DNA from: Bacteroidaceae bacterium
Lineage (GTDB): Bacteria > Bacteroidota > Bacteroidia > Bacteroidales > Bacteroidaceae
Length of the DNA stretch: 64,000 nucleotides
NCBI GenBank assembly: GCA_017442185.1
Contig: JAFSAT010000030.1
Span: 1-64,000 of the forward strand
Direction of reading: 5' to 3'
A program made the position numbers and the translations under genes. Each line of letters starts with the position of its first letter. Within the stretch, counting starts at the first letter, position 1. Of the stretch, positions 6,233 to 19,613 are shown in pieces. The notes under the pieces were generated by a model. It made no database searches. It saw nothing but the letters and a program-made list of their open reading frames with translations, and was not told where the DNA came from.

Positions 6233-6274
6233 GGCGTAAATAACCGAAACAGCTTCTTAGCAAGAGAAACTGCC

Positions 6275-6317
6275 AAAAGAGGATGACCCGAAAAATAAAT
6301 ACGGGTCATCCTCTTTT
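6275..6317 (+). terminator. Terminator of the aspT-aspD operon
   Basis: A perfect 16-bp stem (6275-6290 with 6302-6317) with an 11-base loop. A-run and T-run flank the GC-rich core, so it can act on both strands and would also stop minus-strand transcripts arriving from the terminase arm. Confidence 0.92.
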
Positions 6318-6337
6318 ACCTTTTATGGAACAATTAT

Positions 6338-6465
6338 GAAGCTGTTTAAATTTAAATCGCTAAATTTTTAATAGAGCAAAAACAGATATTCTTGAATATA
6401 AAAATGGCGAAACAAACAATACAGTTTATCATAAGAAAATATTTTTAGAAACATAAACAGCTTCT
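6338..6465. repeat. Dispersed inverted-end element, copy A
   Basis: The left end GAAGCTGTTTAAATTT (6338-6353) and the right end ending AAACAGCTTCT are inverted copies, with a 128-bp AT-rich body. The right end lies 5 bases from the terminase stop codon on the minus strand. The body shares GAGCAAAAA, GGCGAAACAAACAA and AAGAAAATATTTTTAGAAA words with copy F at 41044, which lies in the opposite orientation. Confidence 0.8.
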
Positions 6466-6469
6466 ATGA

Positions 6470-8455
6470 TTATATGCTTGCTTCACTTATGATTCTTGTT
6501 CTTTTGCTGCTTCGCTTATCGTCGGTGATGCGTGTGGGAAGAGGAGTGTTGTAACAAGTCCATATAAGTATGGCGGTTGCCATCACACGGTCGTCGTGAT
6601 TCCCCTCGACGGCACCCATCTCTTTGCCATTCTCTTTCAGCTCATATAAATCCAGCTCGTATGTCGTTGGCAGGCAACGTTCAATATATAATCCGTCGCG
6701 CAGAGCCTTTATAAGAAAATTTATCACCATAGGTTTTGTAGAAGGATTTGTGTGGAATCCCCAACGGCGGGGGCGCCCCTGACGAATCTCTTGTTGGCTG
6801 GTACGGCTATACAGATTGCTGTATTTGCCAGCAATTTCATTCAAGATATATTCAAAATTGTCACCTTCCGTTCCCTCAGTCTCAAGAGTGTTTGCTTCTA
6901 TCACAAGAAGAGCATTATCATAGGCACGAGCTATTTCAACGGCTTTCCATGCCAGCTTATCGTGTTCTATGTGGCCGTGCCAGCATGCGGCAATCTCGGG
7001 TACTCCGCCACCGGGCATTGCCATGCGGTCGGCAACCAATATACATGAATAGTCTGATTTTTTTGATACACCGCCCACATCAACCGTTACAATATAACGA
7101 TTGCGGCAAGCACTCTCTTTATCAGGCATAAGCCACACACTCAGAGAATTTTCATTGCCATGCTCGCCGGGATGTGCCGGAATGAATCTTCCGTTTACAA
7201 TGTCGCCAATGAACGGTGGCGGAACACAGGTCTTGCGTGCTTCCTGCACATAAGATATTCGGAACACTCTGCGCCCGGTACTTTGAAAAGCCTCTGCCGC
7301 GGTAGATGGAAATTCCGAGAACAGACGCCACTCATCGGGTATTTCGCGACGTTTATCGCGATACCAATTGATTGCTTCGAGTGTTGCGCCCAAGTCGAAA
7401 AGTCCTTTTTCGTAGTCGTTCATGCTCTCAACAAAAGCACCATAGCCATTATCTTCGATAGGCTTGTTGTATAGGTCGATAGTGTACCAAGGAATAAATA
7501 CAGGGGTAAAATTGTTGCGTCCCTCGGTAGCCTCAATCCACGTGCGATGAAAAAAATTACCAACCCCCTTTGCTGTCGATTCCATCACCTTTACGGTGTA
7601 TGCTCCGCCGGCTATCGAGCCAAAAATGGATTGCACAAGGTCTTCGGGTTTGCGTCCGGCAGTTGCTTTCCACAGGCCGACCTCGGTGAGGTGTGCCATG
7701 CTTATATCTTCGCTTCGCAGAGAGTCGGGCTTTTGTGACGAACCCAATGAGTATCGACAGTTTCCCGGGTGTATGATACGTGTGTTACGTGTACTCTGAA
7801 ACGGGCTTGTTGTCAGCCGTCGGCCGTTTGAAGCCCACAACGGATAATGATTTATTACCTTAGAGAGCATTCCTGCCACTATGGACGACTGCTTCTCGAT
7901 GTCACCGCATATCACGCTGTTCCAATTGTTGCGATGTATAAGTTGTATCCACAGCATATAGAGCTGAGTGAGCGTGGAGCCTCCCCATTGACGTGCTTTG
8001 CACAATATTATATCTATTGGGCGTCCTGCGATACGCAGTGTTTCCAAGGCCTTAAGATATTGTCGTTGCGGACGATTCAGTGTGAATGAAATATCACGCC
8101 CTTTTCCTTTGTCCGAGATGGTGGCTGTGCTTTTTGCCCAATATTCAAAATCATATTTTAAGCGTTTGCGACAGAAAGCAAGCCACAATTGCAGTATGTG
8201 GCGCTGTTCCGGATTATTGTGTCCCTGCATGCGCAGATATTCCACCGTACCGTGTTCAATGAGAGGCAAAACATCGTCATCGGCTATCATGGCCGTAGGG
8301 AGGTTCATCTCCTCCAATGGAAAGCCTTTTATGATGATGTGTTCGCGTGGTACCGATGTTGACCCCTCTCCTGTTATCGGATTGTAGGGAGAGCAAATCA
8401 GCATGCGACGTTTCTCGTTCTCTTGTATAATATGATTCTTCTCTGTTTCGGTCAT
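6470..8455 (-). CDS. Phage terminase large subunit (ATPase and nuclease)
   Basis: The ATG at 8455 is chosen because it forms an ATGA overlap with the upstream gene; the frame stays open further upstream but there it only overlaps that gene. The 661-residue protein has the terminase ATPase motifs: adenine-binding and Walker A region with KARQWGGST (153-161), Walker B-like AHLTEVGLW with E258, and coupling motif ESTA (292-295). The C-terminal RNase H-like nuclease keeps its acidic residues: D459 in VTVDVGG, E520 in VIEANT and D621/D622 in NHDDRV. All motor and nuclease motifs look intact, which argues against simple decay. It would cut and pump DNA into a capsid. It is the last gene of the minus arm, after three small proteins. 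No recognisable portal protein is encoded nearby. Confidence 0.9.
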   Translation of the reverse strand: MTETEKNHIIQENEKRRMLICSPYNPITGEGSTSVPREHIIIKGFPLEEMNLPTAMIADDDVLPLIEHGTVEYLRMQGHNNPEQRHILQLWLAFCRKRLKYDFEYWAKSTATISDKGKGRDISFTLNRPQRQYLKALETLRIAGRPIDIILCKARQWGGSTLTQLYMLWIQLIHRNNWNSVICGDIEKQSSIVAGMLSKVINHYPLWASNGRRLTTSPFQSTRNTRIIHPGNCRYSLGSSQKPDSLRSEDISMAHLTEVGLWKATAGRKPEDLVQSIFGSIAGGAYTVKVMESTAKGVGNFFHRTWIEATEGRNNFTPVFIPWYTIDLYNKPIEDNGYGAFVESMNDYEKGLFDLGATLEAINWYRDKRREIPDEWRLFSEFPSTAAEAFQSTGRRVFRISYVQEARKTCVPPPFIGDIVNGRFIPAHPGEHGNENSLSVWLMPDKESACRNRYIVTVDVGGVSKKSDYSCILVADRMAMPGGGVPEIAACWHGHIEHDKLAWKAVEIARAYDNALLVIEANTLETEGTEGDNFEYILNEIAGKYSNLYSRTSQQEIRQGRPRRWGFHTNPSTKPMVINFLIKALRDGLYIERCLPTTYELDLYELKENGKEMGAVEGNHDDRVMATAILIWTCYNTPLPTRITDDKRSSKRTRIISEASI

Positions 8456-8925
8456 ATTCCGGCTAAGTCTGTGGTGCGACGACGCACCTTGTTTTTCATC
8501 AGTTTTGCAAATTGCTGCTGCACGTTGACAAAAAGACTTGTGCGCAGTGATATGTAGCTTTGTGCCGACTCGGGTTGTCTGAGGAGCAACCATTGCAATG
8601 TAAGTTCGTTTACAAGATAGTCTTTTGTCGCCTGGCGCAGCAGTGGCAAAATATCAGGTCGTGTGTCATGCGCGGTGGTGAAATTTATTGCAACATATTC
8701 TTTGTCAACAGTGCATGATATATGTGGGAAGCGAAGAGCTACAATGGATATAAGTTCGTTGCAAGCTGTTTCGAGGAATTGGTCGAACAGCTCGTCGTCG
8801 CAAGACGAGCTTTGTATAATGTCGGCATTTATGTCTCTGCGTTTGAGCGCTTCGCCCATATAGTGGTTTCTGAGGTCTGTCTGCTGCCTTAGTTCATCTT
8901 TTTTGATAAGTATGGTGTTTTCCAT
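8452..8925 (-). CDS. Phage-cluster protein, paralogue 1 of a three-member set
   Basis: A 157-residue protein not recognised as a known family. It shares a pattern with the products at 8970-9482 and 18183-18605: an acidic-Glu-Leu helix (CNELISIVALRF, 55-66), a beta-like stretch (YVAINF, 77-82) and a helix ending in an aromatic tryptophan, YLVNELTLQW (103-112), followed by a proline-acid turn (QPES, 117-120). The N terminus is lysine-rich and the C terminus basic (KNKVRRRT). It overlaps the terminase start by four bases, which suggests translational coupling. A connector or packaging accessory role is possible from position alone. Confidence 0.7.
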   Translation of the reverse strand: MENTILIKKDELRQQTDLRNHYMGEALKRRDINADIIQSSSCDDELFDQFLETACNELISIVALRFPHISCTVDKEYVAINFTTAHDTRPDILPLLRQATKDYLVNELTLQWLLLRQPESAQSYISLRTSLFVNVQQQFAKLMKNKVRRRTTDLAGI

Positions 8926-8969
8926 TGTTTTTTATGTTGTTTGAGGGTCTTTTTTTTTAGAATATGCTT

Positions 8970-9482
8970 CTAAATGTCTATTATGTTTTTGTCACAATTA
9001 TATGGCCGTTTCGGACGCTGTCGCATTGCCATAAGTTGGCGCATCTGCATCATGAGCCTTTCTGCTTCACCTGCTGCAAGAGGTGTTTCATCGGGCTTAT
9101 GTTGCGCTGTCCATAATTGCAGTGTACGTGTCACCGCATAGCTTTCCATTGTATTTTCTATTTGCTGAATACATTCCAAAGGAAAATTTGGTGGTACTGA
9201 GAGGGTAAAAGTGTATTTTATATTGCTTTTTCCATCTTCTTCGTATTCTGACATATTGCTTGTGCAGGGTGACAGGTATTTTGTGAGAAGTGACGCAAGC
9301 TCATCTATTGCCATCTGTATGTGGTCGCTTAATTGTGAGAGGTCGTTGTCTGATGCTTGAAATCGGGCGGCAAGCATTGCAGGTGCTCCGGCTTCGCGGC
9401 GTGCTTCACCTGTGTAGAAGGTGTGGGTCTGTATGCGCAGTTCTACATTACGCCTATTGATGATTAGTGTTATTCGTTTCAT
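8970..9482 (-). CDS. Phage-cluster protein, paralogue 2 of a three-member set
   Basis: The start at 9482 gives a 170-residue protein beginning MKRITLI and an ATGA overlap with the gene upstream; an earlier in-frame ATG at 9572 lies wholly inside that gene. It carries the shared pattern of the set: IDELASLLTKY (59-69), the strand-like TFTLSVPPNF (91-100), YAVTRTLQLW (115-124) and KPDE (129-132). The likeness to the 18183-18605 product is the closest of the three (LSxPxN, then LxLW...KPD). A basic, methionine-rich helix follows (LMMQMRQLMAMRQRPKR). The N-terminal part (residues 1-40) looks like a beta strand pair with no known match. Function unknown. Confidence 0.7.
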   Translation of the reverse strand: MKRITLIINRRNVELRIQTHTFYTGEARREAGAPAMLAARFQASDNDLSQLSDHIQMAIDELASLLTKYLSPCTSNMSEYEEDGKSNIKYTFTLSVPPNFPLECIQQIENTMESYAVTRTLQLWTAQHKPDETPLAAGEAERLMMQMRQLMAMRQRPKRPYNCDKNIIDI

Positions 9483-9934
9483 ATAATGTCGGTGTTTATT
9501 GAAGATATGCAAGGATTGTATATGTTGCGCTCGCGCAGCGCTTTGTAGAGCAGAGCCTGGAAGGTGTTGCAATCCATGTAGAATGATGGTGCAGGGCTGT
9601 ATATGATTTTTTCGAGAAGACTGTATCGTCCGTGACGGGTGATATTTTCACGGCTCATCTTTATGAAGCGTCTGTATATCTCTTTATACATCTCTATTTT
9701 GTTCTTATTTGCGATTGGCAGACGTTTTTTGCGAATCATAAGTGAGATGAGGCGTCGGGCATTCTCGTAGCTTGTGAAGAAACGCGGCGCACTCGACTTT
9801 ACGGCATTTTCTACAATTTCACGTTGTGTTACGGCAGGGTTATTCTCTGTCATTTTTTTCATGCTTCTGAAGAAGGCTTCAATCACGGCTTCTTTGCGTC
9901 CGTCGCTTTTGGGCTTGTTGTAGTTGTAATTCAT
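9479..9934 (-). CDS. Putative DNA-binding phage-cluster protein
   Basis: A 151-residue basic protein, the first gene of the minus arm. Residues about 33-72 (AVTQREIVENAVKSSAPRFFTSYENARRLISLMIRKKR) have the look of a helix-turn-helix or winged-helix unit: a TQREI helix start, a turn, and an arginine-rich recognition-like helix. Position before the large terminase and DNA-binding character make a small-terminase-like or regulatory role worth considering, but the size and sequence do not identify it. It overlaps the next gene by ATGA. The promoter region upstream carries a 10-bp inverted repeat which could be its own target. Confidence 0.65.
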   Translation of the reverse strand: MNYNYNKPKSDGRKEAVIEAFFRSMKKMTENNPAVTQREIVENAVKSSAPRFFTSYENARRLISLMIRKKRLPIANKNKIEMYKEIYRRFIKMSRENITRHGRYSLLEKIIYSPAPSFYMDCNTFQALLYKALRERNIYNPCISSINTDII

Positions 9935-9960
9935 GATTGCTGTTTTAAAATTAGAGTTTA

Positions 9961-10006
9961 CAAAATTATAGTCATTTTTGGCTGAAAAGGTTGCAGAAAT
10001 GACTAT
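9961..10006 (-). promoter_or_regulatory. Candidate promoter and operator of the terminase arm
   Basis: On the minus strand a -7 box TAATTTTG (plus 9961-9968) lies 26 bases before the first start codon. It abuts one arm of a perfect 10-bp inverted repeat, ATAGTCATTT at 9968-9977 and AAATGACTAT at 9997-10006, with arm centres 29 bases apart. Two arms about three helical turns apart, touching a promoter, suit a repressor site. The rest of 9935-10413 holds repeat copy B and AT-rich sequence with no gene. Confidence 0.5.
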
Positions 10007-10145
10007 TTTTTATGCTCCAGTTGATAAAATTTATTAATTCATGTCAGAATTATTTTTGTGAAGCTCTGTTTTATCTCTGCATTGTTTGTTTTCGGCATAT
10101 AAGATAAGTTCACGTGTGTGTGATATTTTTTTGCCTTTCAGTTTC

Positions 10146-10336
10146 GGAGCTGTTTGAATTTGTGTCATTGTAATTCGTATGTTTTTTTAGAATATTATTT
10201 CATTTTTAAGAGCGCATAGTGCGATATATAACCTTTTAAAAAGAGAAAAACAGTCAATAAAGAGCATAAAAAGTCAAGTAAGATTCGCTTATGAATGATA
10301 TGAACATAACATTAGAAAGAAATTTAAACAGCCGCT
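10146..10336. repeat. Dispersed inverted-end element, copy B
   Basis: The left end is GGAGCTGTTTGAATTT-like (10146-10160) and the right end AAATTTAAACAGCCGC (10320-10335), 191 bp in all. The body contains GAGCGCATAGTGCG followed by ATATAACC, matching the GCACGTAGCGGGCTACGTAACC segment of copy E in position and form. It lies between the two divergent arms of the phage-like cluster. Confidence 0.7.
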
Positions 10337-10413
10337 GAACTGTTTATCAATTTTACAACCTTGTCGATGTTGATTGATATTTTCTTTGCATCGTAATCAA
10401 AAATTTTATCATT

Positions 10414-11190
10414 ATGTATCAAAAAATGCAAAACAATCCACCGGAGAATGTGGCGGTCGAGCTGTCGCAGCCGGATGATGGCAACCAACACCAAGTGCAA
10501 GTTTCGGAATTTGCCAACTTAGAGGCCGGCCTGAAGAGTATCTTTGGTGCAGACTTTAATCTTGCCGATGAACGTTCACAACAGATGTTGCTTGCTCATC
10601 TTAAACTTAATTTCGATCAAAAAAAGAGGCTTGCCGATGCTATCGAGGCCGACCCACGCCTGGGACAGATGTTGGCTGATATGGTAGATGGGAAACGAAA
10701 TGCCCATTCGGCCATGGCGCGATATTTTGGTCGTTCGTTTATGAATGTTGACGAGGAGAGTCCGGAATTTGAGGAGATTCTGATGGCGGACGAAGAGCGT
10801 CGAGAGGAGATTGAACGTATCATGAACGACAGGCGCGAGTATGAAAGCAATCTCGAGGCCAGCCGTCCTATGATTGAAGATTTCTGTAACCAAAAGGGGT
10901 ATGAACCTGCCGATTTTCTTGAGCTGGCGTGGGAGCGTTTGTTGCTGCCTATTCTATCGGGAAATTATACACAGGATGTGTGCATTGCTCTTGATAATGC
11001 CTTGAATTATGAGCAGGATGTAGAGGATGCTTTTGCTGCCGGCAATATTAAAGGTCGCAACACAGGCATTCAGCGTATGCGTCAGGATTTTGGCGATGGA
11101 TTGCCAAAGGGTCTGACAAGTGTCGCACCCGATGCGGCGCCACAGCCCAAACGTCGTAATTCGCTATTAGATACGGCTTTAGAGGCTTAG
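10414..11190 (+). CDS. Scaffold-like protein of the phage cluster
   Basis: A 258-residue, acidic, helix-rich, soluble protein without cysteine-rich or membrane parts. The centre is charged and coiled-coil-like (EEILMADEERREEIERIMNDRREYE, about 128-152), and the C terminus is basic (PQPKRRN followed by a short helix). Position directly before the capsid-like gene, acidic helical content and a basic C-terminal tail are the usual features of capsid scaffolding proteins, in which the tail contacts the coat. No protease domain is visible. Assignment rests on context and composition rather than on a motif; it could instead be a capsid-internal protein. It opens the plus arm of the cluster, about 480 bases from the minus arm. 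Confidence 0.6.
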   Translation: MYQKMQNNPPENVAVELSQPDDGNQHQVQVSEFANLEAGLKSIFGADFNLADERSQQMLLAHLKLNFDQKKRLADAIEADPRLGQMLADMVDGKRNAHSAMARYFGRSFMNVDEESPEFEEILMADEERREEIERIMNDRREYESNLEASRPMIEDFCNQKGYEPADFLELAWERLLLPILSGNYTQDVCIALDNALNYEQDVEDAFAAGNIKGRNTGIQRMRQDFGDGLPKGLTSVAPDAAPQPKRRNSLLDTALEA

Positions 11191-11212
11191 GGACGGTTGG
11201 TGTTTAAAGGAT

Positions 11213-11232
11213 GTAAATTTAAACAGCTTCTA
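11213..11232. repeat. Dispersed element, single end (copy C)
   Basis: GTAAATTTAAACAGCTTCTA contains the complete 17-bp end motif AAATTTAAACAGCTTCT. No partner end is seen within 200 bases, so this is a solo end. It follows the stop codon of the scaffold-like gene by 22 bases. Confidence 0.65.
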
Positions 11233-11301
11233 AACAGATTCTTAGTGTTTATTGAATATTAGAGTATTATTTATTTTATTAATTGTTAATTTTCTATTAC
11301 T

Positions 11302-12930
11302 ATGAGAAACATTTTTTCGTTTTTTAAGAAGAACCCGTTGTTTATTCTTTTTTTCTTGGTAAGTGCCGTACTTTTCTTTTTTGCTAAAGAGGGTGGAGCC
11401 TTGGCTTTGGCTGCAGTAGGTGTTGTACCTGCTGGTTCGCCGCGTGCTTCGCGCGGTATTGCCGGATTGGCCTCACAAGGGCTTGGTGATGCAACAACTG
11501 TATCTAATGCTTCGGAATTGAGCGATAGCCTCATTGAATCGGAGGTAGATGAGAAGATTATCAGTGTTGCAAGTGACGAGAGTGTGATTGATACCATAAA
11601 ACGCCGAATCAAACGCAAGGTGCCTGTAACCTCTTTTGAAGTTGACCATTACATGATAGACGAGAAACGTTCAAAAGCATATACCAATGCTACCTACACA
11701 GGCATTAAGGCTACACGTGCCGAGATTCCTTTCTCCACCACAGGCGACCGCAAAATTTTTCAGGAGTATTATACAGCCATTTGCAAAGGGGTGAACGGGT
11801 ATGACAGCACCGGACAGATTGAACTTCCGGGGGTAGACCTCATGCTGTTCTTCGTGGGAAAGAACGAAACAACAGAAGCGCCCATCGCAATGGCCGTCAA
11901 CGGCCCCAAAGTTAATCCGACAGATGAGTACTGTGTAGTGCCCACAATTCCTGCTGCCACAGAGATTATCCTTCTCTCTTCGGCTGCATACGAAACGCAA
12001 AAGTTTATTTCGCCAAGCACTGTGGTGCCTGTGCCCGAGCGCGTTTATTTGCAGAAGCAACTTTGTAACAGCATTGTGAGCGACTACTTCAAGGCACAAA
12101 AGAAGAAAATTCGCTTCAGCGAGGCGCAGATTGCCGAGGCTGTGATACGCCAATTCCGCCTTGAGAGCTGTCGTACAGCCTGGGTGGGGCAACCCGGAAA
12201 ATTCAAAGTACAGGCAATGGATCCTGCAATGGGGTATCAATGGGACTATTTCAGCAAGGGGTTGCGTTGGCAGTTTAAGCGTCAGTATGACCTTTCGTCG
12301 ACAATTACTTTTGCCGACCTTATTAACCTCTCAATGGTAAAATTCACAGGCTTCAACTGTTCCCGCAAAGCTGTGTGGTTCTTAGGTAAACAACTTTTGA
12401 ATGACATTCAAAAGATTGATATGACGTTGCACAAGAATATCACAGTGAAGGATGATACTGTGTGGGGGGTAGAGTGTACCCGCATACACACTGTCTTTGG
12501 TGATATTGCCTTGCTGCACGATCCGACGCTTGACGCTCTCGGATATTCCAACTGTGGAGGACTCATCGACGAGAATGGTCTTGTACGCTACTATATGAAG
12601 AACGAAGATACTGCTGTTGAACGTGTAGATGGCGAAGAGGCTAACAGAGAGGTAGTGATGACTATTGATTGTCTCTGTTTGAAGGGTTACAGTCATATAT
12701 GGGTGAACGGTGCTGCCGCCAAGAGTGATATTCCCGGTGCAGCACGTGTAACAAGCTCGGCCACACTTCCTCAATCGCCAAGTGCAAATGATGTTGTTGT
12801 GCTCACAGCAGATGTTAATCACACTGTTGCCGGTTCCGATGTATTGTGGTTCTCGGCCGGTACGGTTGTAACATACACAGGAAATACCTGGGTTGAGTAT
12901 ACGGGCGAGATAATGGCTCCGGTGGAGTGA
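11302..12930 (+). CDS. Major capsid-like protein with an N-terminal membrane segment
   Basis: A 542-residue protein, the product most likely to form a shell. The last third reads like an HK97-fold coat of the kind found in Bacteroidetes podoviruses: VWGVECTRIHTVFGDIALLHDP, then GGLIDENGLVRYY and a long beta-rich end (about 385-480), finishing with a small separate beta domain (about 480-542). The odd part is the start: residues 11-28 are a strong membrane helix after two lysines, and 32-43 are a second hydrophobic stretch, before a serine/alanine-rich linker (44-75). Phage coats normally lack this, so the protein might be anchored, targeted or processed. A stem-loop follows the gene. The coat call is an inference from order, size and the C-terminal pattern. 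Confidence 0.6.
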   Translation: MRNIFSFFKKNPLFILFFLVSAVLFFFAKEGGALALAAVGVVPAGSPRASRGIAGLASQGLGDATTVSNASELSDSLIESEVDEKIISVASDESVIDTIKRRIKRKVPVTSFEVDHYMIDEKRSKAYTNATYTGIKATRAEIPFSTTGDRKIFQEYYTAICKGVNGYDSTGQIELPGVDLMLFFVGKNETTEAPIAMAVNGPKVNPTDEYCVVPTIPAATEIILLSSAAYETQKFISPSTVVPVPERVYLQKQLCNSIVSDYFKAQKKKIRFSEAQIAEAVIRQFRLESCRTAWVGQPGKFKVQAMDPAMGYQWDYFSKGLRWQFKRQYDLSSTITFADLINLSMVKFTGFNCSRKAVWFLGKQLLNDIQKIDMTLHKNITVKDDTVWGVECTRIHTVFGDIALLHDPTLDALGYSNCGGLIDENGLVRYYMKNEDTAVERVDGEEANREVVMTIDCLCLKGYSHIWVNGAAAKSDIPGAARVTSSATLPQSPSANDVVVLTADVNHTVAGSDVLWFSAGTVVTYTGNTWVEYTGEIMAPVE

Positions 12931-12948
12931 TAGTGCAGGCTTAAATTT

Positions 12949-12981
12949 GGAGGGCGATTATATCTGTGTATAGCGTCCTCC
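12949..12981 (+). promoter_or_regulatory. Intercistronic stem-loop after the capsid-like gene
   Basis: GGAGG-GCG-ATTATA pairs with TATAGCG-TCCTCC (one G-U pair and one mismatch) around a TCTGTG loop. No T-run follows. It may protect the 3' end of the capsid message or trim readthrough, giving a higher level of coat than of later genes. Confidence 0.45.
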
Positions 12982-13021
12982 TCTCTTACACAGAATATTA
13001 ATTAATATAAATAATAGGCAG

Positions 13022-13453
13022 ATGAAACAGAGAATTACATACGAGATACGTGGACAGATTGAGCGTAATTGCTTCTTTCGCATAGGGTCTGCGCTGGTGA
13101 GAATGGAATTTACCGGAGGTGCCGTAAACTCGGCCGGTATTGTTCCTGCACAATATATCACCGATAATCCGCTTTATCAGCGTGCAATAGAAAACAGTGC
13201 CGATTTTCGCAACGGCGTCATCAAACGTGGCAGTGTGGTGAATATTGATAAAGCAGATGAGAATGAGCCCACAGATGCTTCGGTTGTGAAGAGTGAGGAT
13301 GAGAATACTTATCATGATGTTACAAATACGCAGCAGGCGCGTGCCATCCTTATGGCCGAACCTTATAAATGCCCTCTTTCGGAATTGCAGAATAAGGTTT
13401 CGGTACGTGCAAAAGCGCAGGAGCTGGGTGTTAAGTTTCCCGATTGGATATGA
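13022..13453 (+). CDS. Phage head-associated hypothetical protein
   Basis: A 143-residue protein with an N-terminal beta-rich part (ITYEIRGQIERNCFFRIG..LVRMEFTGG, residues 4-32), a stretch typical of small proteins found right after the coat gene in Bacteroidetes phages (ITDNPLYQRAIENSADFRNGVI, 46-67), an acidic linker and a C-terminal helix with SELQNKVSVRAKAQELGV. The last part resembles a short LEM/SAP-like helical hairpin used to bind nucleic acid or partner proteins, but this is only a likeness. It overlaps the next gene by ATGA. A head-decoration or head-completion role is a guess from gene order. Confidence 0.6.
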   Translation: MKQRITYEIRGQIERNCFFRIGSALVRMEFTGGAVNSAGIVPAQYITDNPLYQRAIENSADFRNGVIKRGSVVNIDKADENEPTDASVVKSEDENTYHDVTNTQQARAILMAEPYKCPLSELQNKVSVRAKAQELGVKFPDWI

Positions 13454-14106
13454 TTACGGCTGAACAGTTGCGCCAAAAAGTGCGCAGGCTATTGAATGAG
13501 GTTGAGGATGATGCAGGGGTGACACTGCTCTCCGATGATACGCGCTCGCTTGATGAGCATATTGAGGCTCTTATGCCCGATGCAGTGCAATTTATTCAGA
13601 TGAATAAGGGCTACGGGATGGTGAATCCAAAGGAGGGGCATGTGCCGCAGATACTCATTAACGACAATGGCGACGGAACGGGCAACTTTGTGTTACCCGA
13701 GGATTTTGTGTCGCTGCTGTCATTTAAGATGAATGGTTGGGCACGTCCCTGCACAACGCTCTATCCTGATTCTTCGCAGGTGGCATTGGCGCAACATAAT
13801 CCATATACTCGTGCCGGATATAGCAGGCCTGTATGTACCGAGGGGGTCGACCCCTCGGGCAGGCGTCTGCTCTGTTTCTATTCGTTGCCGCCGGGTGTGT
13901 TGCCTGTCATATCGCAGTTTGTGTACGAAGCTGCGTATAATTCCTCGGACGGACTTTCGGGCAACAATGCAACTTTGCACAATGCCGTTGCTTATCAATG
14001 TGCAGCACTCTTGTGCAATATGTTTGAGCGGCGCGATAATGCAGGGGCTTTTTTCAGTATTGCTGCTTCGTTGTGTAATAATGTAAAACTTGATAATAAT
14101 AAATAA
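13450..14106 (+). CDS. Head-tail connector/adaptor-like protein
   Basis: The ATG at 13450 is chosen because it gives an ATGA overlap with the gene before; an upstream TTG at 13444 is less likely. The 218-residue protein begins with helices (ITAEQLRQKVRRLLNEVEDD) and contains the adaptor-like pattern of DTRSLDEHIEALMPDAVQFI, a beta-rich middle (GNFVLPEDFVSLLSFKMNGW), and a C-terminal helix pair (NAVAYQCAALLCNMFERRDNAGAFFSIA). The pattern of helix, LPEDFxxLxSxxxxGW and closing helices is common in connector ring proteins of podoviruses in Bacteroidetes. It would sit between a portal and a tail, yet no portal is recognised in this cluster. Confidence is moderate and depends on pattern recall. 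Confidence 0.6.
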   Translation: MITAEQLRQKVRRLLNEVEDDAGVTLLSDDTRSLDEHIEALMPDAVQFIQMNKGYGMVNPKEGHVPQILINDNGDGTGNFVLPEDFVSLLSFKMNGWARPCTTLYPDSSQVALAQHNPYTRAGYSRPVCTEGVDPSGRRLLCFYSLPPGVLPVISQFVYEAAYNSSDGLSGNNATLHNAVAYQCAALLCNMFERRDNAGAFFSIAASLCNNVKLDNNK

Positions 14107-14108
14107 TA

Positions 14109-14390
14109 ATGGCAGTATCGGAATTGAAATTTAATAAGAATGGTTGTTTTTGGCAAACGGAACCTCTCTGTTGTAAAGGAGGTGACATACGGCTGAGAGT
14201 GCATAAGAACGGCCCTTATCCCGTAGATATAATGGTGAGCATAGATAATCGAGAGGAGTATTTGCGGCACGATGATTTTGGCTTCGATGAGCGCATGTGT
14301 GAAGTTACTCTTGAGGGGGTGATGCCCGAGCAATATATAAGTTTGCGTTCGCGCAGTGAATTTACACTTGTGAAATATATGGAGATATAG
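14109..14390 (+). CDS. Small beta-rich phage-cluster protein
   Basis: A 93-residue protein starting two bases after the previous stop codon. It alternates hydrophobic and polar residues through its length (IRLRVHKNGPYPVDIMVSIDN, EVTLEGVMPEQYISLRSRSEFTLVKYM), which suggests an all-beta domain of immunoglobulin-like or jelly-roll size. There are no cysteine pairs of note, no signal peptide and no known motif. It could be a minor capsid or tail component. Two bases separate it from the holin-like gene, so the plus arm is clearly one operon. Confidence 0.55.
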   Translation: MAVSELKFNKNGCFWQTEPLCCKGGDIRLRVHKNGPYPVDIMVSIDNREEYLRHDDFGFDERMCEVTLEGVMPEQYISLRSRSEFTLVKYMEI

Positions 14391-14392
14391 TA

Positions 14393-14863
14393 ATGGATGC
14401 GTTGAAGATTATCCTGGCATCTTTGTGTGCCAATATTACAGCTTTTTTGTGTCCGATAAGGAACGAGATATTCGGCCTTGTATTGCTCTTTGCTGTTAAT
14501 TTCCTATTTGGCCTGCTTGCCGATTTGAGTAATCACCGTGAATGGAGCTTTAAAAAGGCTTTCCGGCTTTTTCGCGATGCTGCGGTTTTTTTCGTGATGG
14601 TGACATCTATATATCTGATAGGGCATCTTAAGGGCGAGGAGATTGCAACGGTGCAGTGTGTCTCGTTTCTTACTTACGTGGCGATATATTTTTATGGCAC
14701 CAATATACTGCGTAATGCACGTATGGTGACACAGGAGAAGAGTACGCTGTTCAAAATTCTGGATTTCCTTTATTATGTGCTGAGCTTGCGAATAGTGAAG
14801 GGCTGCGGTTCATTGGGTAACTATTTTGAGCTATATGAGAAGGAGCGGATTAATAGGGTTTAG
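14393..14863 (+). CDS. Holin-like membrane protein
   Basis: A 156-residue protein with four predicted membrane segments: about 7-22 (LASLCANITAFLCPI), 25-43 (FGLVLLFAVNFLFGLLADL), 62-78 (AVFFVMVTSIYLIGHL) and 85-104 (CVSFLTYVAIYFYGTNIL). A polar C-terminal tail of about 50 residues follows. Size, topology and position beside a spanin-like lipoprotein suit a phage holin, which would permeabilise the inner membrane to let an endolysin out. No endolysin gene lies in the window, so release would need a host or unlinked enzyme, or the protein has another role. It overlaps the next gene by 29 bases. Confidence 0.6.
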   Translation: MDALKIILASLCANITAFLCPIRNEIFGLVLLFAVNFLFGLLADLSNHREWSFKKAFRLFRDAAVFFVMVTSIYLIGHLKGEEIATVQCVSFLTYVAIYFYGTNILRNARMVTQEKSTLFKILDFLYYVLSLRIVKGCGSLGNYFELYEKERINRV

Positions 14864-15239
14864 TGTTTTTATTTTTGTGTTCCTTGTATTTGCTGCATGC
14901 AGCTCTCTTAATAAGAATGCTGATGTGCTAAGCACAAAAAGAGTGTATGCAGAGCGTCTTGTAAGGGACAGTGTGTTTCTGCGTGACAGTATTGTTGTTC
15001 GTGAGAGTGCCGACACTGTGTTTCATACGCACACACGCACAATCTTTCGCGATCGTTTGCGCACCGATACTCTGTGGCGCACCGATACGTTGTTGATGGT
15101 TCAGGAGAGCGTAAAGCCTGATTCTGAACGTGGTGCTCTCTTGTGGAAGAATGTGGCAGTGCTTTTTCTGTCGGCACTTGTTTTATGGAAAAGTGGATTG
15201 TTGGCTTTTATACGACGAATTTTGAAAAAAGTATTATGA
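14835..15239 (+). CDS. Lipoprotein with C-terminal membrane helix, unimolecular-spanin-like
   Basis: The ATG at 14835 gives 134 residues; a TTG nine bases upstream is less likely. Residues 1-21 are a lipoprotein signal with the lipobox VFAAC (Cys22). The middle (about 30-95) is charged and helical, with recurring RDS/RTDT words (VRDSVFLRDS, RTDTLWRTDT), and residues 107-125 form a membrane helix followed by a basic end (RRILKKVL). A lipid anchor at one end and an inner-membrane helix at the other is exactly the plan of unimolecular spanins, which bridge outer and inner membrane and fuse them at lysis. Overlap with the holin-like gene supports a lysis cassette. The role is inferred from topology. 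Confidence 0.6.
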   Translation: MRRSGLIGFSVFIFVFLVFAACSSLNKNADVLSTKRVYAERLVRDSVFLRDSIVVRESADTVFHTHTRTIFRDRLRTDTLWRTDTLLMVQESVKPDSERGALLWKNVAVLFLSALVLWKSGLLAFIRRILKKVL

Positions 15240-18106
15240 GACAAAGTTTTTCATTCAAAGGTATCACGCGCTCGGTCGACCACCTTTATGCAAAAGACGG
15301 TGAGTGTCTTGAGATGGTTAATTTGCGTATGCACGATGGCTCTGTTGTCCCCATTACATCGCCACAGGTGTTGGCACAGTTGCCTTTCAAATATATTGCA
15401 ATATATCGTCACGAAATTGCATCGGCTTATTTATGCGTTTCGTCTACTGATAGAAGCATACATGTTTACAATGATTCATTTGAACCTATTGGCAAAACCT
15501 CGCCCACGCTGCTTTCTGTAGAGTGTGTGGGGATTATGCGAGTTGAATTTATGGGGAATTTGGTGTGTATGTTTACGTCTGACGCAACGCTGTTTGCCAT
15601 ATATGATAATGGTACTTATCGTTGGTTGGGAGAGGGCCCCTCTGTACCTATAATGAGGATATCGCCCGAGTCGCAAGTGCAGAAGGTGATAACCAAAAAT
15701 AAATACCTTATACAGTACTCTGAAGAAAATCAGGATATTTATTGGAAAAATGTTGAAAAAGGGTATATTGACGAGTGTATAGCCCTGCTTAACAAACGTG
15801 GCCTTTATATTGACAGGGCTTTGTTCAGATATGCTCTGCGCTTGTTTGACGGCAGTTACATCTATGTGTCATCAATCTATTATGTAGAGGATGGTGGAAG
15901 TGTGCAAGGCCTTGGGCGCGACAGCGATAATTTTATATCAACCCCCAATGATACTTCTTCTACATCGAGCACAACTTATACGGTGTATGTGCAGGGGTTC
16001 AAGCCTGTTTTTTCTTTTGAGAATTTAGACCTTGCTGCATGGAAAAACATAGTGACAGGTATTGATGTGTTTACGTCCGGTTCTATAATGGGACATAAGA
16101 TTAGCGATAGTTCTACCGCCAGCAACGGTCACGAGGAGGATGTTTATGTAACAAGAGTGCATGGTGATGTGTATGTAAAGAAAAATGCCGAAGAATTGCG
16201 CAAGCATGTATTTTCAACTGCAATATTTTATAAAATCGCCGAATATGACATACAAGGCAGGTCGTTGGATTCGGTAAATGATGTCTCTGCCACAAATCTG
16301 GCGTTGTGTGATACTTTAAATGACGATTCTGTTACCTTGGTCAAGCGTACTGCCCGATACAGTTACGTATTCAATGGAAGGCTTCATATTGCCAATTTGT
16401 GCGAGAAACTGTTCAAAGGATATAGCGATTATGGCTATGTTCCGGCAGGTTGCAGTGTTAAATATGTGCGTGGAGTGGTCTATACAGAAATAAATACAGC
16501 ACAGGGTGTTGCTATCCTTAAGAACGATTTTGGGAATAATTTTCCAATAGGCTACGATGGCTTTGATTATTGTTTGTCACCCTACATTATGTATCCCGAC
16601 GCACGTGCAGAGAAGGTTACTTTTGTATTATCTGTCGAGGGCGAAATTTATAAAAGAAGTTTTACATTGCATCCGCATGGATTGTTGAATGTTGCACATT
16701 TTCTGAATGATAACACTCTTTCGCTTTATGTCAATATAATGGGTGTGTCAGGCAGTAATGCTCGTGTAAAAGTAATCTCGCCCAATCTTATTAAACGCTT
16801 CTTCTCTTATGAAGAGGGTGAATTTAATATCGTATATAGTGATAATGGTTATTGGATGTATGGCGACACTGTATTTAAGATTGATGGATATGAGAATAAA
16901 AATGGCTATTATGGATTGTTCAGTTTGAGCACAGCTCCCTCGGTGGGAGATGTCTTGCTTGTGTCGATAATGATGTTGCCCACCTCAACCGCTGTCAAGA
17001 ATATATGCCCGCTGTTTTTGGATGAGCAGTGGGAGCGACCCGAAGAAATGCCTGATATTAAAGAGACTGACACTGTGGAGCTACGCGAGAATGTGCTTAA
17101 GGTTTCTGAAACGGATAATCCTTTTACCTTTCCGGCAAAACAAACTTATACCCCCTCGCATAATGCCATTCTGGCATTATGCAGCAATACGGTGGCTTTG
17201 TCGCAAGGACAGTTCGGACAGCATCCGCTATATGTGTTTTGTTCCGATGGTATATGGGCCATGTCGGTTGATGCCTCCGGTGGGCTTGCCTATGCGGGTT
17301 GTTATCCTCTTTCGCGCGAGGTGTGTCTGAATGCCGATTCGGTGCGCGGTGTAGACTCGGGGGTGGTCTTTTTGAGCCGCAAAGGATTGTTGTTGCTCAA
17401 TGGTGGCAAAATAACGGATTTGTCCGCAGCTCTTGATGCTTCGTCATACACCGCACGCACTGTCGATAAGAACGATATAATGTATAGGGTGGCGTTAATA
17501 GCCGATTTACAACATGTGTTCGGGGGTGATGTTTTTGTAGAGTATGCTTCTAAGGCTGTGGTGGGCTTTTTCTATGACAGGCGCGAATTGATTGTTTCTA
17601 ATGCTTCGTATACGTACAGTTATGTGTTGTCATTGGAAAATGGAACATGGACTAAACTATCGCACTCTTTTCACAGTGTTGCAAATTGCTATCCCGATTT
17701 TATGGCTGTCTCATATAAAGACAATGGTACCGTTGTTTGTACGATGCGCGATGGAAATGCCGCCGACTGCAACATTCTGCTAATAACACGCCCATTACTC
17801 TGGGGAACAAAGCAGTTTAAGAGGGTAGTGCAGATGGTGCTGCATGCAAATGTAATACCGGCTTCGGCCAAAGGCTCGTTTAGCGGTCTTGCGTGTTATC
17901 TGCTGTGCAGCAACGATGGCGAGCATTTTAAACTTATTGGTGGAAGCGAACGTCGCAAGGCTTTTAACGATATGTCGGTGCTTTGTGTCCCTACTCAATC
18001 GTATCGCTATTTTGCCTTGGCCTTGGTGGGGCGCATAAGTAGCGAAAGCAGAATTACTGCTCTTGAATTTGTGGCCGGAACTACATGGAATAGTCGCCTG
18101 AATTGA
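15236..18106 (+). CDS. Large phage structural protein, propeller-like N-terminal region
   Basis: The start at 15236 (MRQSFSFKGITRS) forms an ATGA overlap with the gene before and gives 956 residues; an earlier in-frame ATG at 15143 lies inside that gene. It has no signal peptide or membrane segment. Residues 20-165 show repeated short beta strands (YIAIYRHEIASAYLCVSSTDRSIHVYND, CVGIMRVEFMGNLVCMFTSDATLFAIYDNGTYRWLG) of the kind seen in propeller folds, and about 690-800 repeats such a pattern (LYVFCSDGIWAMSVDASGGLAYAG, VFLSRKGLLLLNGGKITDLS). Phage DNA-stabilisation or tail-hub proteins have this build, so a tail-stub or head-closure protein is the best guess. It is the largest product of the cluster. 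Confidence 0.55.
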   Translation: MRQSFSFKGITRSVDHLYAKDGECLEMVNLRMHDGSVVPITSPQVLAQLPFKYIAIYRHEIASAYLCVSSTDRSIHVYNDSFEPIGKTSPTLLSVECVGIMRVEFMGNLVCMFTSDATLFAIYDNGTYRWLGEGPSVPIMRISPESQVQKVITKNKYLIQYSEENQDIYWKNVEKGYIDECIALLNKRGLYIDRALFRYALRLFDGSYIYVSSIYYVEDGGSVQGLGRDSDNFISTPNDTSSTSSTTYTVYVQGFKPVFSFENLDLAAWKNIVTGIDVFTSGSIMGHKISDSSTASNGHEEDVYVTRVHGDVYVKKNAEELRKHVFSTAIFYKIAEYDIQGRSLDSVNDVSATNLALCDTLNDDSVTLVKRTARYSYVFNGRLHIANLCEKLFKGYSDYGYVPAGCSVKYVRGVVYTEINTAQGVAILKNDFGNNFPIGYDGFDYCLSPYIMYPDARAEKVTFVLSVEGEIYKRSFTLHPHGLLNVAHFLNDNTLSLYVNIMGVSGSNARVKVISPNLIKRFFSYEEGEFNIVYSDNGYWMYGDTVFKIDGYENKNGYYGLFSLSTAPSVGDVLLVSIMMLPTSTAVKNICPLFLDEQWERPEEMPDIKETDTVELRENVLKVSETDNPFTFPAKQTYTPSHNAILALCSNTVALSQGQFGQHPLYVFCSDGIWAMSVDASGGLAYAGCYPLSREVCLNADSVRGVDSGVVFLSRKGLLLLNGGKITDLSAALDASSYTARTVDKNDIMYRVALIADLQHVFGGDVFVEYASKAVVGFFYDRRELIVSNASYTYSYVLSLENGTWTKLSHSFHSVANCYPDFMAVSYKDNGTVVCTMRDGNAADCNILLITRPLLWGTKQFKRVVQMVLHANVIPASAKGSFSGLACYLLCSNDGEHFKLIGGSERRKAFNDMSVLCVPTQSYRYFALALVGRISSESRITALEFVAGTTWNSRLN

Positions 18107-18182
18107 AAATCCTCTCCCCCTCTTGTAATCTTCTTAAACAGGTTGATAATCATTGTGATGATAATTAAAATAAGAATTATTT

Positions 18183-18605
18183 ATGAATTTTGAGATAAAG
18201 ATAGATAAAAAACAGGTTATAGATTTTCTGCATATTATGTCGGGACATCTTGGTATCAAGTTGCAGTTGCCTGATATTTTCTCTTCTACCGATGATGATG
18301 CTTTGCGCATTGCACAGATGTGGAAGATGTCTGCCGATGAATTGTTGCAACTGCTCTCGCCTTATGCAGTGATGAACTTTAATGATGCAACAATAGTGTA
18401 TGAGCTCTCTCTTCCCACCAATTGGGATGTTCGACAGGCTGATAACCTAAGCGAATATTGCAATGCTTATGTTCGTTACGAACTGTTTGCCTTGTGGCTC
18501 GATTATATAAAGCCCGATTATGCTTCGTTGCAAAGAACATTGGGAGGTGCTGTCGCTTCGGCCATTAGGCGTGTGCTTACTTTGCGCTGCCCTCCGGCGA
18601 GATAG
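18183..18605 (+). CDS. Phage-cluster protein, paralogue 3 of a three-member set
   Basis: A 140-residue protein, last of the plus arm, 76 bases after the large structural gene. It shows the same pattern as the 8452 and 8970 products encoded on the opposite arm: ADELLQLLSPY (51-61), YELSLPTNW (73-81), YVRYELFALW (96-105) and KPDY (110-113). The N terminus has a lysine-rich helix; the C terminus is a short basic helix (ASAIRRVLTLR). Sharing of the pattern across divergent operons suggests duplication inside the element and a common structural role such as stacked rings or hetero-oligomers. Function unknown. Confidence 0.68.
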   Translation: MNFEIKIDKKQVIDFLHIMSGHLGIKLQLPDIFSSTDDDALRIAQMWKMSADELLQLLSPYAVMNFNDATIVYELSLPTNWDVRQADNLSEYCNAYVRYELFALWLDYIKPDYASLQRTLGGAVASAIRRVLTLRCPPAR

Positions 18606-18682
18606 CAGCTTATATTCCGGTTGCAGTCTTCTGATTTTTAGTTTTATTTACGTTTCATATATGAATTATGGTAGTCTTTTCG

Positions 18683-18713
18683 TTGTATTTTCAAACGAAA
18701 AGAACTATCTTTG
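18683..18713 (+). promoter_or_regulatory. Bacteroides-type promoter of bamD
   Basis: A -7 box TATCTTTG at 18706-18713 with a TTG at 18683-18685, spaced 20 bases, 78 bases before the bamD start codon. Confidence 0.6.
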
Positions 18714-18791
18714 CAGTCAATTTTGTTATAAACGACAGACTGCGCACACATTGGCAGCGCAGTGGCAGGTGTTGTTGCAATATACCGAAAT

Positions 18792-19613
18792 ATGAAGAAC
18801 AGTTTTTTTAATTTTATATTGCTTATTGTCTTAATTTCGTTTGCGTCATGCTCAAATTACAATAAGTTACTCAAGCCTACCACCGACATTGAATATCGTT
18901 ACGAGGCTGCAAAAGAGTATTACCTGAATGGTGAATATTCAAAAGCCGCACCTCTTCTTGAAGGGCTTATAAGAACTTTTAAAGGTTCGGACAAAGCCGA
19001 AGAGTCGCTGTTCTTGTTGGGAATGTGCTATTATGAGTCGTATGACTACTACACCGCATCGCAATATTTTAAGACCTACTACACAAGCTATCCGCGCGGC
19101 GAGTATGCAGAACTAGCCCGTTTCTTTTCGGGTAAAGCGCTATATAACGATATAGCCGAGCCTGCACTTGACCAAACAGATACATACACCGCTATACAGG
19201 AATTGCAACTTTTTATAGAGTATTTTCCGGCAAGCAGCAGGCGTGACGAGGCACAGAAAATGCTGTTTGACATGCACGATGTGTTGGTAGAGAAAGATTA
19301 TCTTTCGGCAAAATTATATTACGACTTAGGCGATTATATGGCTTATATGGGCAATAACTACCAGGCGTGCATAATAACGGCGCAGAATGCCCTTAAAGAT
19401 TATCCTTATACAAAATTTCGTGAGGACCTGTCGATACTTATTCTGCGTGCAAAATATAAAATGGCTCTGCACAGTGTAGAGGAGAAGAGAATTGACCGCT
19501 ACCGCGATGCCGTTGACGAATATTACGCCTTTAAGAATGAATTTCCCAACAGCAAATATATACCCGAGGCCGAGGAGTATTACTCCGAGTCTTTGAAAGT
19601 GGTAAACGAATGA
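18792..19613 (+). CDS. bamD: Outer membrane protein assembly lipoprotein BamD
   Basis: The start at 18792 (MKNSFFNF) gives 273 residues with a proper lipoprotein signal ending ISFASC; an ATG 30 bases upstream would add a polar leader and is rejected. TPR-like helical repeats follow: YEAAKEYYLNGEYSKAAPLLEGLI, then SLFLLGMCYYESYDYYTASQYFKTYY, and so on to a final YYAFKNEFPNSKYIPEAEEYY. This is the usual five-TPR form. BamD sits on the inner leaflet of the outer membrane and with BamA folds beta-barrels. The rpoZ and DUF4293 genes follow in the order typical for Bacteroidales. It lies directly after the phage-like cluster, but its own promoter separates them. Confidence 0.92.
   Translation: MKNSFFNFILLIVLISFASCSNYNKLLKPTTDIEYRYEAAKEYYLNGEYSKAAPLLEGLIRTFKGSDKAEESLFLLGMCYYESYDYYTASQYFKTYYTSYPRGEYAELARFFSGKALYNDIAEPALDQTDTYTAIQELQLFIEYFPASSRRDEAQKMLFDMHDVLVEKDYLSAKLYYDLGDYMAYMGNNYQACIITAQNALKDYPYTKFREDLSILILRAKYKMALHSVEEKRIDRYRDAVDEYYAFKNEFPNSKYIPEAEEYYSESLKVVNE

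Follow-up and report, generated by a model that had tools for sequence, protein, structure and literature searches.

What is a block of phage-type genes doing between two housekeeping genes of a Bacteroidaceae bacterium, and is it a dying prophage, a satellite or part of a particle kept by the host? The block occupies positions 6470-18605 of the 64,000-nt stretch analysed here (the window), and a sequence-only reading had described it as a minimal packaging cluster without a portal, kept in a domesticated, gene transfer agent-like or satellite-like form. Comparison with related genomes, mostly MAGs, leads us to regard the cluster, with a probability of roughly 0.7, as one locus (locus A) of a podovirus-type gene transfer agent (GTA) that a Bacteroidales genus has domesticated and passes on mostly by vertical descent.

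Gene content and boundaries of locus A

The cluster is real, with all described reading frames intact and open, and is bounded by two host genes:

4574..6232, plus strand: host aminotransferase (Pfam Aminotran_1_2), left boundary
18792..19613, plus strand: host bamD (YfiO; Pfam YfiO, 2.6e-16), right boundary

The aminotransferase gene, which we take to be aspD, is present in other genomes of the genus without locus A adjoining. A comparison of the aspD-bamD site, proposed in the sequence-only reading, was run and proved unusable, because none of the 24 other full-length aspD loci has bamD at 1.5 kb or less, and the empty-site test was dropped. Profile searches of the cluster proteins and ten adjoining ORFs revealed neither integrase nor replication genes, and no att-like repeat pairing 6233-6470 with 18606-18790 turned up in the 20 largest repeat families, out of 60 or more; both agree with what was noticed earlier from the sequence. 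Four genes are transcribed leftward:

6470..8455, minus strand: terminase large subunit (TerL), 661 aa (phrog_2, 4.2e-19; motifs invariant); listed ORF extends to 8593
8452..8925, minus strand: 157-aa protein of the terminase operon (weak phrog_19255)
8970..9482, minus strand: phrog_19255-type small protein (4.9e-12; homologue of phage BKO1-TP3 gp36); listed ORF extends to 9572
9479..9934, minus strand: candidate small terminase subunit (phrog_27246, 2.8e-13; weak Terminase_4, E 0.018)

The phrog_2 match bears out the identity of TerL, which resembles gp60 of Bacteroides phage BF1-TP2 at about 39%. Its KARQWGGST motif and the acidic residues singled out earlier are invariant in 34 sequences from the genus; the latter, called E258, D459, E520 and D621/D622 when counted from MTETEK, a start inside the frame at window 8455, correspond to E304, D505, E566 and D667/D668 in the 707-aa ORF. 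We place TerL at 6470-8455, overlapping the 8452-8925 gene by four bases, since most relatives have about 660 aa and many alignments running farther upstream cross a stop. The 157-aa protein reaches at least 85% of full length in all 33 matching stretches, one prophage among them. For the gene at 8970, the length of many relatives (about 155-170 aa) suggests that translation may begin at the internal start at 9482. Homologues of the 9479..9934 product are BF1-TP2 gp58 and BKO1-TP3 gp49, and its position points to the role of a small terminase subunit. The rightward operon encodes head, tail and lysis-like functions:

10414..11190, plus strand: scaffold-like protein, 258 aa (phrog_22323, 5.2e-11)
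11302..12930, plus strand: major capsid protein (MCP), 542 aa (HK97-type fold)
13022..13453, plus strand: candidate head protein, 143 aa (near full length in 28/28 matching stretches, prophages included)
13444..14106, plus strand: candidate head-tail adaptor, 220 aa (phrog_22135, 2.1e-11; homologue of BF1-TP2 gp54)
14109..14390, plus strand: 93-aa protein (18 stretches; present in part of the genus)
14393..14863, plus strand: holin-like membrane protein (phrog_15037, 2.8e-12; Phage_holin_4_1, 21.8 bits)
14826..15239, plus strand: small membrane/lipoprotein-like protein, possible spanin (sequence pattern by eye)
15236..18106, plus strand: 956-aa tail protein, putative nozzle/stabilisation type (phrog_32516, 9.2e-45, a family without assigned function)
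18183..18605, plus strand: 140-aa protein, weakly phrog_19255-like (E 0.083; 14 stretches)

The scaffold-like protein is homologous to the BKO1-TP3 ORF that precedes the capsid gene and would act as scaffold for a capsid whose AlphaFold model (pLDDT 68.5) matches HK97-fold capsids of phage VP1 (E 2.8e-18, TM 0.43/0.55) and phicrAss001 (8.7e-12). The Phage_holin_4_1 score of the holin-like protein falls slightly below the cut-off of 22.2 bits, and the possible spanin is near full length in 26/26 matching stretches, prophages included. Median identity within the genus is 82% for the capsid protein and 40% for the tail protein, which evolves fast. The model of the latter is mostly beta (pLDDT 84), a profile search of solved structures returned no match, and homology to BF1-TP2 gp33 and BKO1-TP3 gp34 is consistent with a nozzle role.

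The portal resides at a second locus

The earlier claim that a portal is lacking stands for the cluster proteins and the ten profiled neighbouring ORFs and fails for the genome, so that the cluster is not minimal at that level: a P22-type portal (P22_portal, 2.4e-36) is encoded on a separate contig (G000:C28), together with injected-protein-like genes and preceded by the same promoter. We term this region locus B; in the genus it is often flanked by host housekeeping genes. TerL was found in our genome and in 35 of 36 others from the genus, the portal in 38/41. None of 35 locus-A stretches (3-20 kb) of the genus contains a portal gene, and nine genomes with both genes on one contig have them 16-107 kb apart; the distance is 45-4277 nt in 49 of the 53 IMG/VR stretches that hold both. 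Portal and terminase are split genus-wide. The portal is indeed displaced, an outcome that the sequence-only reading had named as adverse if seen in close strains, and the arrangement is conserved across the genus and is not strain-level noise.

Neither an integrase nor a replication gene is among the profiled proteins of locus A and of our own locus B. In 4/38 portal stretches of other genomes (L072, L074, L078 and L082), a domesticated locus B has nearby an ORF similar to the tyrosine recombinase of BF1-TP2. A temperate prophage would be one excisable, uninterrupted unit bearing att sites and genes for integration and replication; the proteins profiled at the two loci of our genome, the repeat families inspected and the portal on its separate contig do not form such a unit.

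A shared promoter and an operator-like dyad

Three regulatory elements were recognized between the divergent operons:

10345..10392, plus strand: rightward promoter, common to the portal locus (TGNCA-N5-RCAACC-N24-TTTGC)
9957..10004, minus strand: candidate promoter of the terminase operon, a weak form of the shared promoter (7.5 bits, second best in the window)
9969..9984, no strand: operator-like dyad TAGTCATTTTTGGCTG inside the spacer of the leftward promoter

With a matrix trained on locus A of other genomes (maximum 13.5 bits in 650 kb of background), the rightward promoter scores 31.1 bits, the top match in the window, and the promoter of our own locus B 25 bits. Loci A and B share a precisely spaced promoter. 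The leftward candidate is not significant by itself because it stays below the background maximum. Allowing at most one mismatch, TAGYCANNNNTGRCTA occurs in 19/27 locus-A intergenic regions of the genus and in 24/30 regions upstream of an S24/CI-like repressor gene, with two occurrences in the 650-kb background; within the 64,000-nt window by itself the dyad is not above chance (0.44 expected). The repressor gene is present in 38/41 genomes, and the operator-like dyad common to its upstream regions and the terminase promoter would be the binding site of its product. Our own locus B lacks the dyad, which precedes locus B in 3/33 stretches, two of those three over-long.

Lysis genes outside the two loci

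Part of the genus has a lone endolysin gene between gyrA and trmD, patchily distributed (19/41). The shared promoter was absent there in our genome, and 12 endolysin stretches yielded one clear site (G036). A GH108 lysin gene on another contig (G000:C21), with a promoter-like site some 28 bp away, was rejected as a member of the regulon; the site scores 8.5 bits, less than the background maximum. The lysin looks horizontally exchanged: G012 has a copy at 97% identity, and 20/41 genomes gave no match.

Inheritance and selection

Elsewhere in the family the system is sporadic (16/151 genomes, nine of those 16 belonging to the same genus). Trees of gyrB and locus A have 11/17 splits in common (chance maximum 4), and Mantel correlations are 0.79 for gyrB-MCP, 0.59 for gyrB-TerL, 0.67 for gyrB-portal and 0.79 for MCP-portal, each with 0/2000 permutations; there is one supported conflict in each tree comparison. 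Both loci track host phylogeny. Their core genes are under purifying selection, with dN/dS of 0.065 (TerL), 0.042 (MCP) and 0.060 (portal) against 0.037 and 0.071 for the references gyrB and aspD, far from the value near 1 that relaxed selection would give. The MCP is full length in 27/28 copies of the genus, ours included, and the remaining copy ends with the fetched stretch. TerL of G017 ends early (569 aa), the scaffold frame of G004 is short (130 aa), and the G001 and G028 stretches lack the tail gene as well as those for the holin-like and membrane proteins. The cheap-amino-acid signature, a trait reported from alphaproteobacterial GTAs, gives a mixed picture: TerL and portal have lower carbon than viral homologues, the capsid higher.

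A probable gene transfer agent in two pieces

GTA viriforms are listed as having caudoviricete-derived proteins, a fully endogenised genome that is often spread over several loci, mostly vertical inheritance with co-diversification with the host, packaging of mostly random host DNA pieces, a head that cannot hold the GTA genome, and delivery of the packaged DNA to other cells (PMC9662315). TerL, portal and HK97-type capsid derive from a caudoviricete ancestor, loci A and B lie apart across the genus, and inheritance is mostly vertical, with co-diversification seen in Mantel tests and tree splits. The split alone would prevent one small packaged unit. The system's retention across the genus, its co-divergence with the host and the low dN/dS uphold the view of a kept, domesticated, GTA-like element that is not decayed.

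In the mechanism we propose, locus A would supply terminase, scaffold, capsid, adaptor, tail protein and holin-like protein, and locus B, elsewhere on the chromosome, the portal, a trimmed large polyvalent (injected-type) protein and two small partners. The S24/CI-like repressor probably silences both its own promoter and the terminase promoter, and the shared promoter would turn on the rightward operon of locus A and locus B together; upon derepression, a few cells may assemble particles, fill the heads with host DNA, lyse, possibly aided by the lone endolysin where present, and deliver the DNA to relatives. More specifically, we lean towards a GTA independently domesticated in a ruminant-hindgut Bacteroidales genus, in which a P22-like virion was cut between portal and terminase, re-coupled by the exactly spaced promoter and the repressor dyad, and given its target range by the fast-evolving tail and polyvalent proteins.

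A domesticated particle that carries host DNA or none and transfers no genes, such as a PBSX-like killing particle or a lysis device, would leave the same genes and the same conservation; the fast-evolving tail protein would suit a changing target, and such a possibility is left open for FpGTA of Faecalibacterium in PMC12946183. Invariant nuclease and ATPase residues of TerL and the retention of scaffold-like, portal and injected-type proteins argue against it, and we consider it rather unlikely. The tailocins known to us also lack head genes, which counts against a killing particle.

Still less probable is an active temperate phage or a helper-dependent satellite that has its missing genes at other sites or is supplied with them by a helper prophage. 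Two genomes of the genus (G008, G015) do carry related true prophages, which might in principle act together with the system, and there are the few recombinase-like ORFs near locus B, but the genes are split between loci and follow the host tree in the genomes examined, and no integrase or replication gene is found among the profiled locus A proteins. Satellites are mobile and lack a complete packaging or capsid set of their own, whereas TerL, portal, capsid and scaffold-like genes are all present here across the two loci and vertically inherited; the satellite or helper-dependent island of the sequence-only reading, with no mobility gene at locus A and the portal elsewhere, finds no backing. 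Slow decay of a prophage split by rearrangement is very improbable, as the few short frames and the genes missing in subclades are outweighed by low dN/dS, full-length capsid genes and a conserved promoter and dyad.

Comparison with known systems

Few GTAs have known genes; they are from Alphaproteobacteria and Brachyspira and, as a recent addition, Faecalibacterium (PMC9662315, PMC12946183). As described in PMC12946183, FpGTA likewise stems from a gut anaerobe, is podovirus-like, occupies two separate chromosomal operons, is near-ubiquitous in its genus and shares TerS, TerL, portal, scaffold and capsid with our system. Its host belongs to the Bacillota, not the Bacteroidota, its TerL, portal and capsid genes form one operon whereas our portal stands apart, and its particles have been shown, whereas those of our system are predicted from genes; the shared promoter and S24 dyad are features described for the present system. 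RcGTA (Rhodogtaviriformidae) is by description comparable in vertical inheritance, host co-divergence and several loci (five, about 20 kb), and BhGTA (VSH-1) of Brachyspira in its genus-wide occurrence, genes that are probably scattered, with terL away from the structural cluster, and lack of synteny between species; both, from Alphaproteobacteria and Spirochaetota, respectively, are experimentally proven (PMC9662315).

Among viruses, Bacteroides phages BF1-TP2, BKO1-TP3 and BS-TP4 (PQ571263, PQ571269, PQ571277) all have homologues of TerL (about 39%) and the tail protein, the first two also of capsid and adaptor, and BF1-TP2 of the portal. Unlike locus A, BF1-TP2, whose full record was compared, has its portal beside TerL and also encodes an integrase, a repressor, replication proteins and an endolysin. 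Among the best 80 of 116 matches kept, the closest viral capsids, at 63-64%, are on IMG/VR contigs L393-L395, which differ in that a single stretch holds the genes for the polyvalent protein, portal and TerL; in L393 a tail gene separates portal from TerL.

The order Bacteroidales is cited as one of the groups in the gut where genes are exchanged at the highest rates, and the Bacteroides packaging observed in that study is attributed to lateral transduction by a phage, not to a GTA (PMC12946183). In the open-access literature, searched through titles and abstract beginnings with incomplete coverage, we found no GTA from Bacteroidota. Prophages that look incomplete may be halves of working systems with dispersed loci, as locus B was found via its portal and tied to locus A by the shared promoter. 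If our reading is true, a genus-wide, co-regulated particle would equip Bacteroidales with an inherent means of spreading any gene, and a virus would have been turned into a DNA-sharing device of gut bacteria, its halves intact at separate chromosomal sites in nearly all sampled members of the genus.

Gene content and occurrence of locus A

The phage-like cluster at window 6470-18605 (locus A) is made up of two divergent operons, and four-base overlaps join several of the leftward genes:

Start taken as 8455, leftward operon: large terminase (TerL)
8452-8925, leftward operon: further gene
8970-9482, leftward operon: further gene
9479-9934, leftward operon: candidate TerS
Rightward operon: scaffold-like protein, capsid, head proteins, holin-like protein, small membrane protein, 956-aa tail protein, 140-aa protein

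Walker A and the acidic residues of TerL singled out in the sequence-only reading (its numbering shifted by +46) are invariant across 34 sequences from the genus, bearing out its claim of intact ATPase and nuclease motifs. TerL proteins of the Bacteroides phages BF1-TP2, BKO1-TP3 and BS-TP4 are labelled tail spike protein in public records (stretch L021:40117-42144; BF1-TP2 record PQ571263). The predicted capsid model (pLDDT 68.5) resembles HK97-fold capsids, with phage VP1 and phicrAss001 as top matches. Eight of ten neighbouring ORFs profiled gave a Pfam family, and the neighbours of locus A with such a family are host genes.

TerL was found in the own genome and in 35 of 36 genomes of the genus, the sole miss being 63% complete; the single match in G015 is a true prophage copy and the gene is divided over two contigs in G033. 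Gene order is largely constant among the fetched genus stretches, several of which end at contig ends. At this locus the holin-like, membrane and tail genes are missing from G001 and G028 and the holin-like gene from G012 and G034, and in G024 about 9 kb of other genes separate TerS from scaffold; by eye, this insert (L045) includes restriction-modification-like genes. Across the family, with non-matching genomes itemised only in part, 16 of 151 genomes gave a capsid match: nine belong to this genus, and the other seven are spread over six further genera. Relatives that carry a name are 'Bacteroidaceae' and 'Bacteroidales' MAGs, the majority sampled from ruminant cecum, colon and rectum. Distant capsid relatives (22-30%), often accompanied by scaffold and adaptor homologues, occur in Dysgonomonas, Barnesiella, Muribaculaceae and Prevotellaceae genomes (L147-L183).

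A portal at a second locus

The cluster had been described as lacking a portal, and none was found in 35 locus-A stretches of the genus (3-20 kb); at genome level the description fails. With gp61 of BF1-TP2 as query, a portal was detected in 38 of 41 genus genomes, and the three misses (67-82% complete) all carry TerL. The own copy (G000:C28:20819-22585, on contig 28; locus B) matches Pfam P22_portal (2.4e-36) and phrog_156 (1.6e-56). Upstream are encoded a 1395-aa protein akin by blastp to the large polyvalent gp68 of BF1-TP2 (3634 aa; phrog_14770, 1.6e-16) and, before the portal, two small proteins related to gp69 (8e-5) and gp70 (4e-9), an order repeated throughout the genus. Among 38 portal stretches, including two from prophages and three extra pieces, the commonest flanking families, each named from a single representative, are ligA (21), dapA (20), malic/PTA (19) and DUF2400 (18) downstream and two ATP synthase genes (13 and 12) upstream. 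ORFs resembling the BF1-TP2 tyrosine recombinase lie close to locus B in four of the 38 (L072, L074, L078, L082) and may be either chance neighbours or remnants. About 7 kb before own locus B, a 2641-aa protein with Kinase-PolyVal, MuF_C and LPD23 (L064:245-8164) is an untrimmed relative of the locus-B polyvalent protein.

IMG/VR viral stretches, extending 10 kb to each side of the capsid gene, carry TerL and portal together in 49 of 53 cases, with gaps of 45-4277 nt (45 of them below 600 nt). The distance is about 16-107 kb in the nine genus genomes with both genes on one contig (G001, G002, G003, G013, G018, G019, G022, G030, G035). True prophages of the same lineage have the two genes 7.6 kb apart in G008 (L030 and L080, G008:C6; capsid 73%) and adjacent in G015 (L036 and L102, G015:C128; capsid 38%). 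The G008 prophage capsid is closer to the domesticated form than that of any viral contig found (64%).

Shared control of both loci

The promoter pattern TGNCA-N5-RCAACC-N24-TTTGC precedes both the rightward operon of locus A and locus B. The spacing AACC-N24-TTTGC is present in 22 of 28 locus-A intergenic and 21 of 31 locus-B upstream regions, each set including one prophage without it. A matrix derived from locus A in other genomes (21 sites) scored 31.1 bits at window 10345 (runner-up in the 64-kb window 7.5) and 24.7 bits at own locus B (runner-up on that contig 7.0), with a background maximum of 13.5 bits in 37 stretches (650 kb) from other Bacteroidales and of 7.7 bits in viral stretches L396-L445. 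Among the 34 further portal stretches, which include one prophage and several lacking upstream sequence, 23 have a top match above 15 bits. Apart from a divergent pair at locus B, the own genome (2.36 Mb) has no perfect match to the pattern; at up to two mismatches 44 were counted versus 26 for a reversed control, so that weak matches are mostly due to chance, and among 30 own-genome matches fetched none outside loci A and B exceeded 9 bits. Beneath the second perfect match, divergent from locus B, resides an 82-aa gene (L328:1098-1343). It has matches in 32 of the genus stretches fetched, 30 of which contain a portal, and in no viral stretch among 53; possibly, it is a genus-specific control gene.

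Allowing one mismatch, the dyad TAGYCANNNNTGRCTA adjoins the terminase promoter in 19 of 27 regions and occurs no more than 250 bp before an S24 repressor gene in 24 of 30, with 10 exact copies in each set; the background at this stringency is 2 sites in 650 kb. Within the window alone it is not above chance; its weight derives from conservation. Seven of eight tested genomes with the repressor gene on a contig other than that of TerL or capsid have the dyad. The repressor (Pfam Peptidase_S24, 6.7e-13) occurs in 38 of 41 genomes in a search within the genus; the own gene is on G000:C46, where the dyad precedes it by 154 bp. By eye, it has the Ala-Gly, Ser and Lys pattern of self-cleaving repressors.

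Lysis genes

Of 41 genus genomes, 19 encode a lone phage-type endolysin (one match weak). It lies between gyrA and trmD in 13 of the 17 whose context was visible, a site occupied in none of 25 loci from other genera, some ending at contig ends. It is therefore a patchy companion, at a site encountered in this genus alone, and at most a possible part of the A/B system. A GH108 lysin (L358, G000:C21; L359, G012:C26) shares 97% identity across two species and has no match in 20 of 41 genomes; recent horizontal exchange is likely.

Descent and constraint

Prophage copies were excluded from all of the following tests of descent and selection. Pairwise divergence of locus A and B genes correlates with gyrB (Mantel r: capsid 0.79, n=21; TerL 0.59, n=26; portal 0.67, n=27) and mutually (capsid-portal 0.79, n=26; tail-portal 0.85, n=23), each value reached in 0 of 2000 permutations; the lowest correlation is gyrB-polyvalent (0.39, n=26). 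For 20 shared genomes, trees of gyrB and locus A have 11 of 17 splits in common, gyrB and locus B 9, and A and B 12 (maximum of 5000 permutations, 4), each comparison containing one supported conflict. From pairs with 0.05<dS<1, dN/dS is 0.065 for TerL (5 pairs), 0.042 for capsid (9), 0.060 for portal (4), 0.116 for tail (2) and 0.17 for polyvalent (3), next to 0.037 for gyrB (48) and 0.071 for aspD (15); few pairs are unsaturated and the values are therefore rough, yet far from 1, the signal of relaxed selection that the sequence-only reading had named as counting against itself. Median identity amounts to 82% for capsid, 77% for TerL, 76% for portal, 77% for aspD, 40% for tail and 33% for polyvalent.

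Relation to gene transfer agents

A literature search largely at the level of titles and abstract openings returned no gene transfer agent (GTA) from Bacteroidota. FpGTA of Faecalibacterium (PMC12946183) is the closest described case, being likewise podovirus-like and organized in two loci. Caudoviricete ancestry, endogenisation over several loci and co-diversification with the host are the genomic GTA criteria of PMC9662315 that the two loci fit. Of the earlier suggestion of a GTA-like element, the absent portal has to be given up at genome level, and the reading as a kept, domesticated element is supported: phage-derived genes, split loci, vertical descent, constraint and shared control match the genomic profile of a GTA, in which host-DNA packaging and delivery would be predicted.
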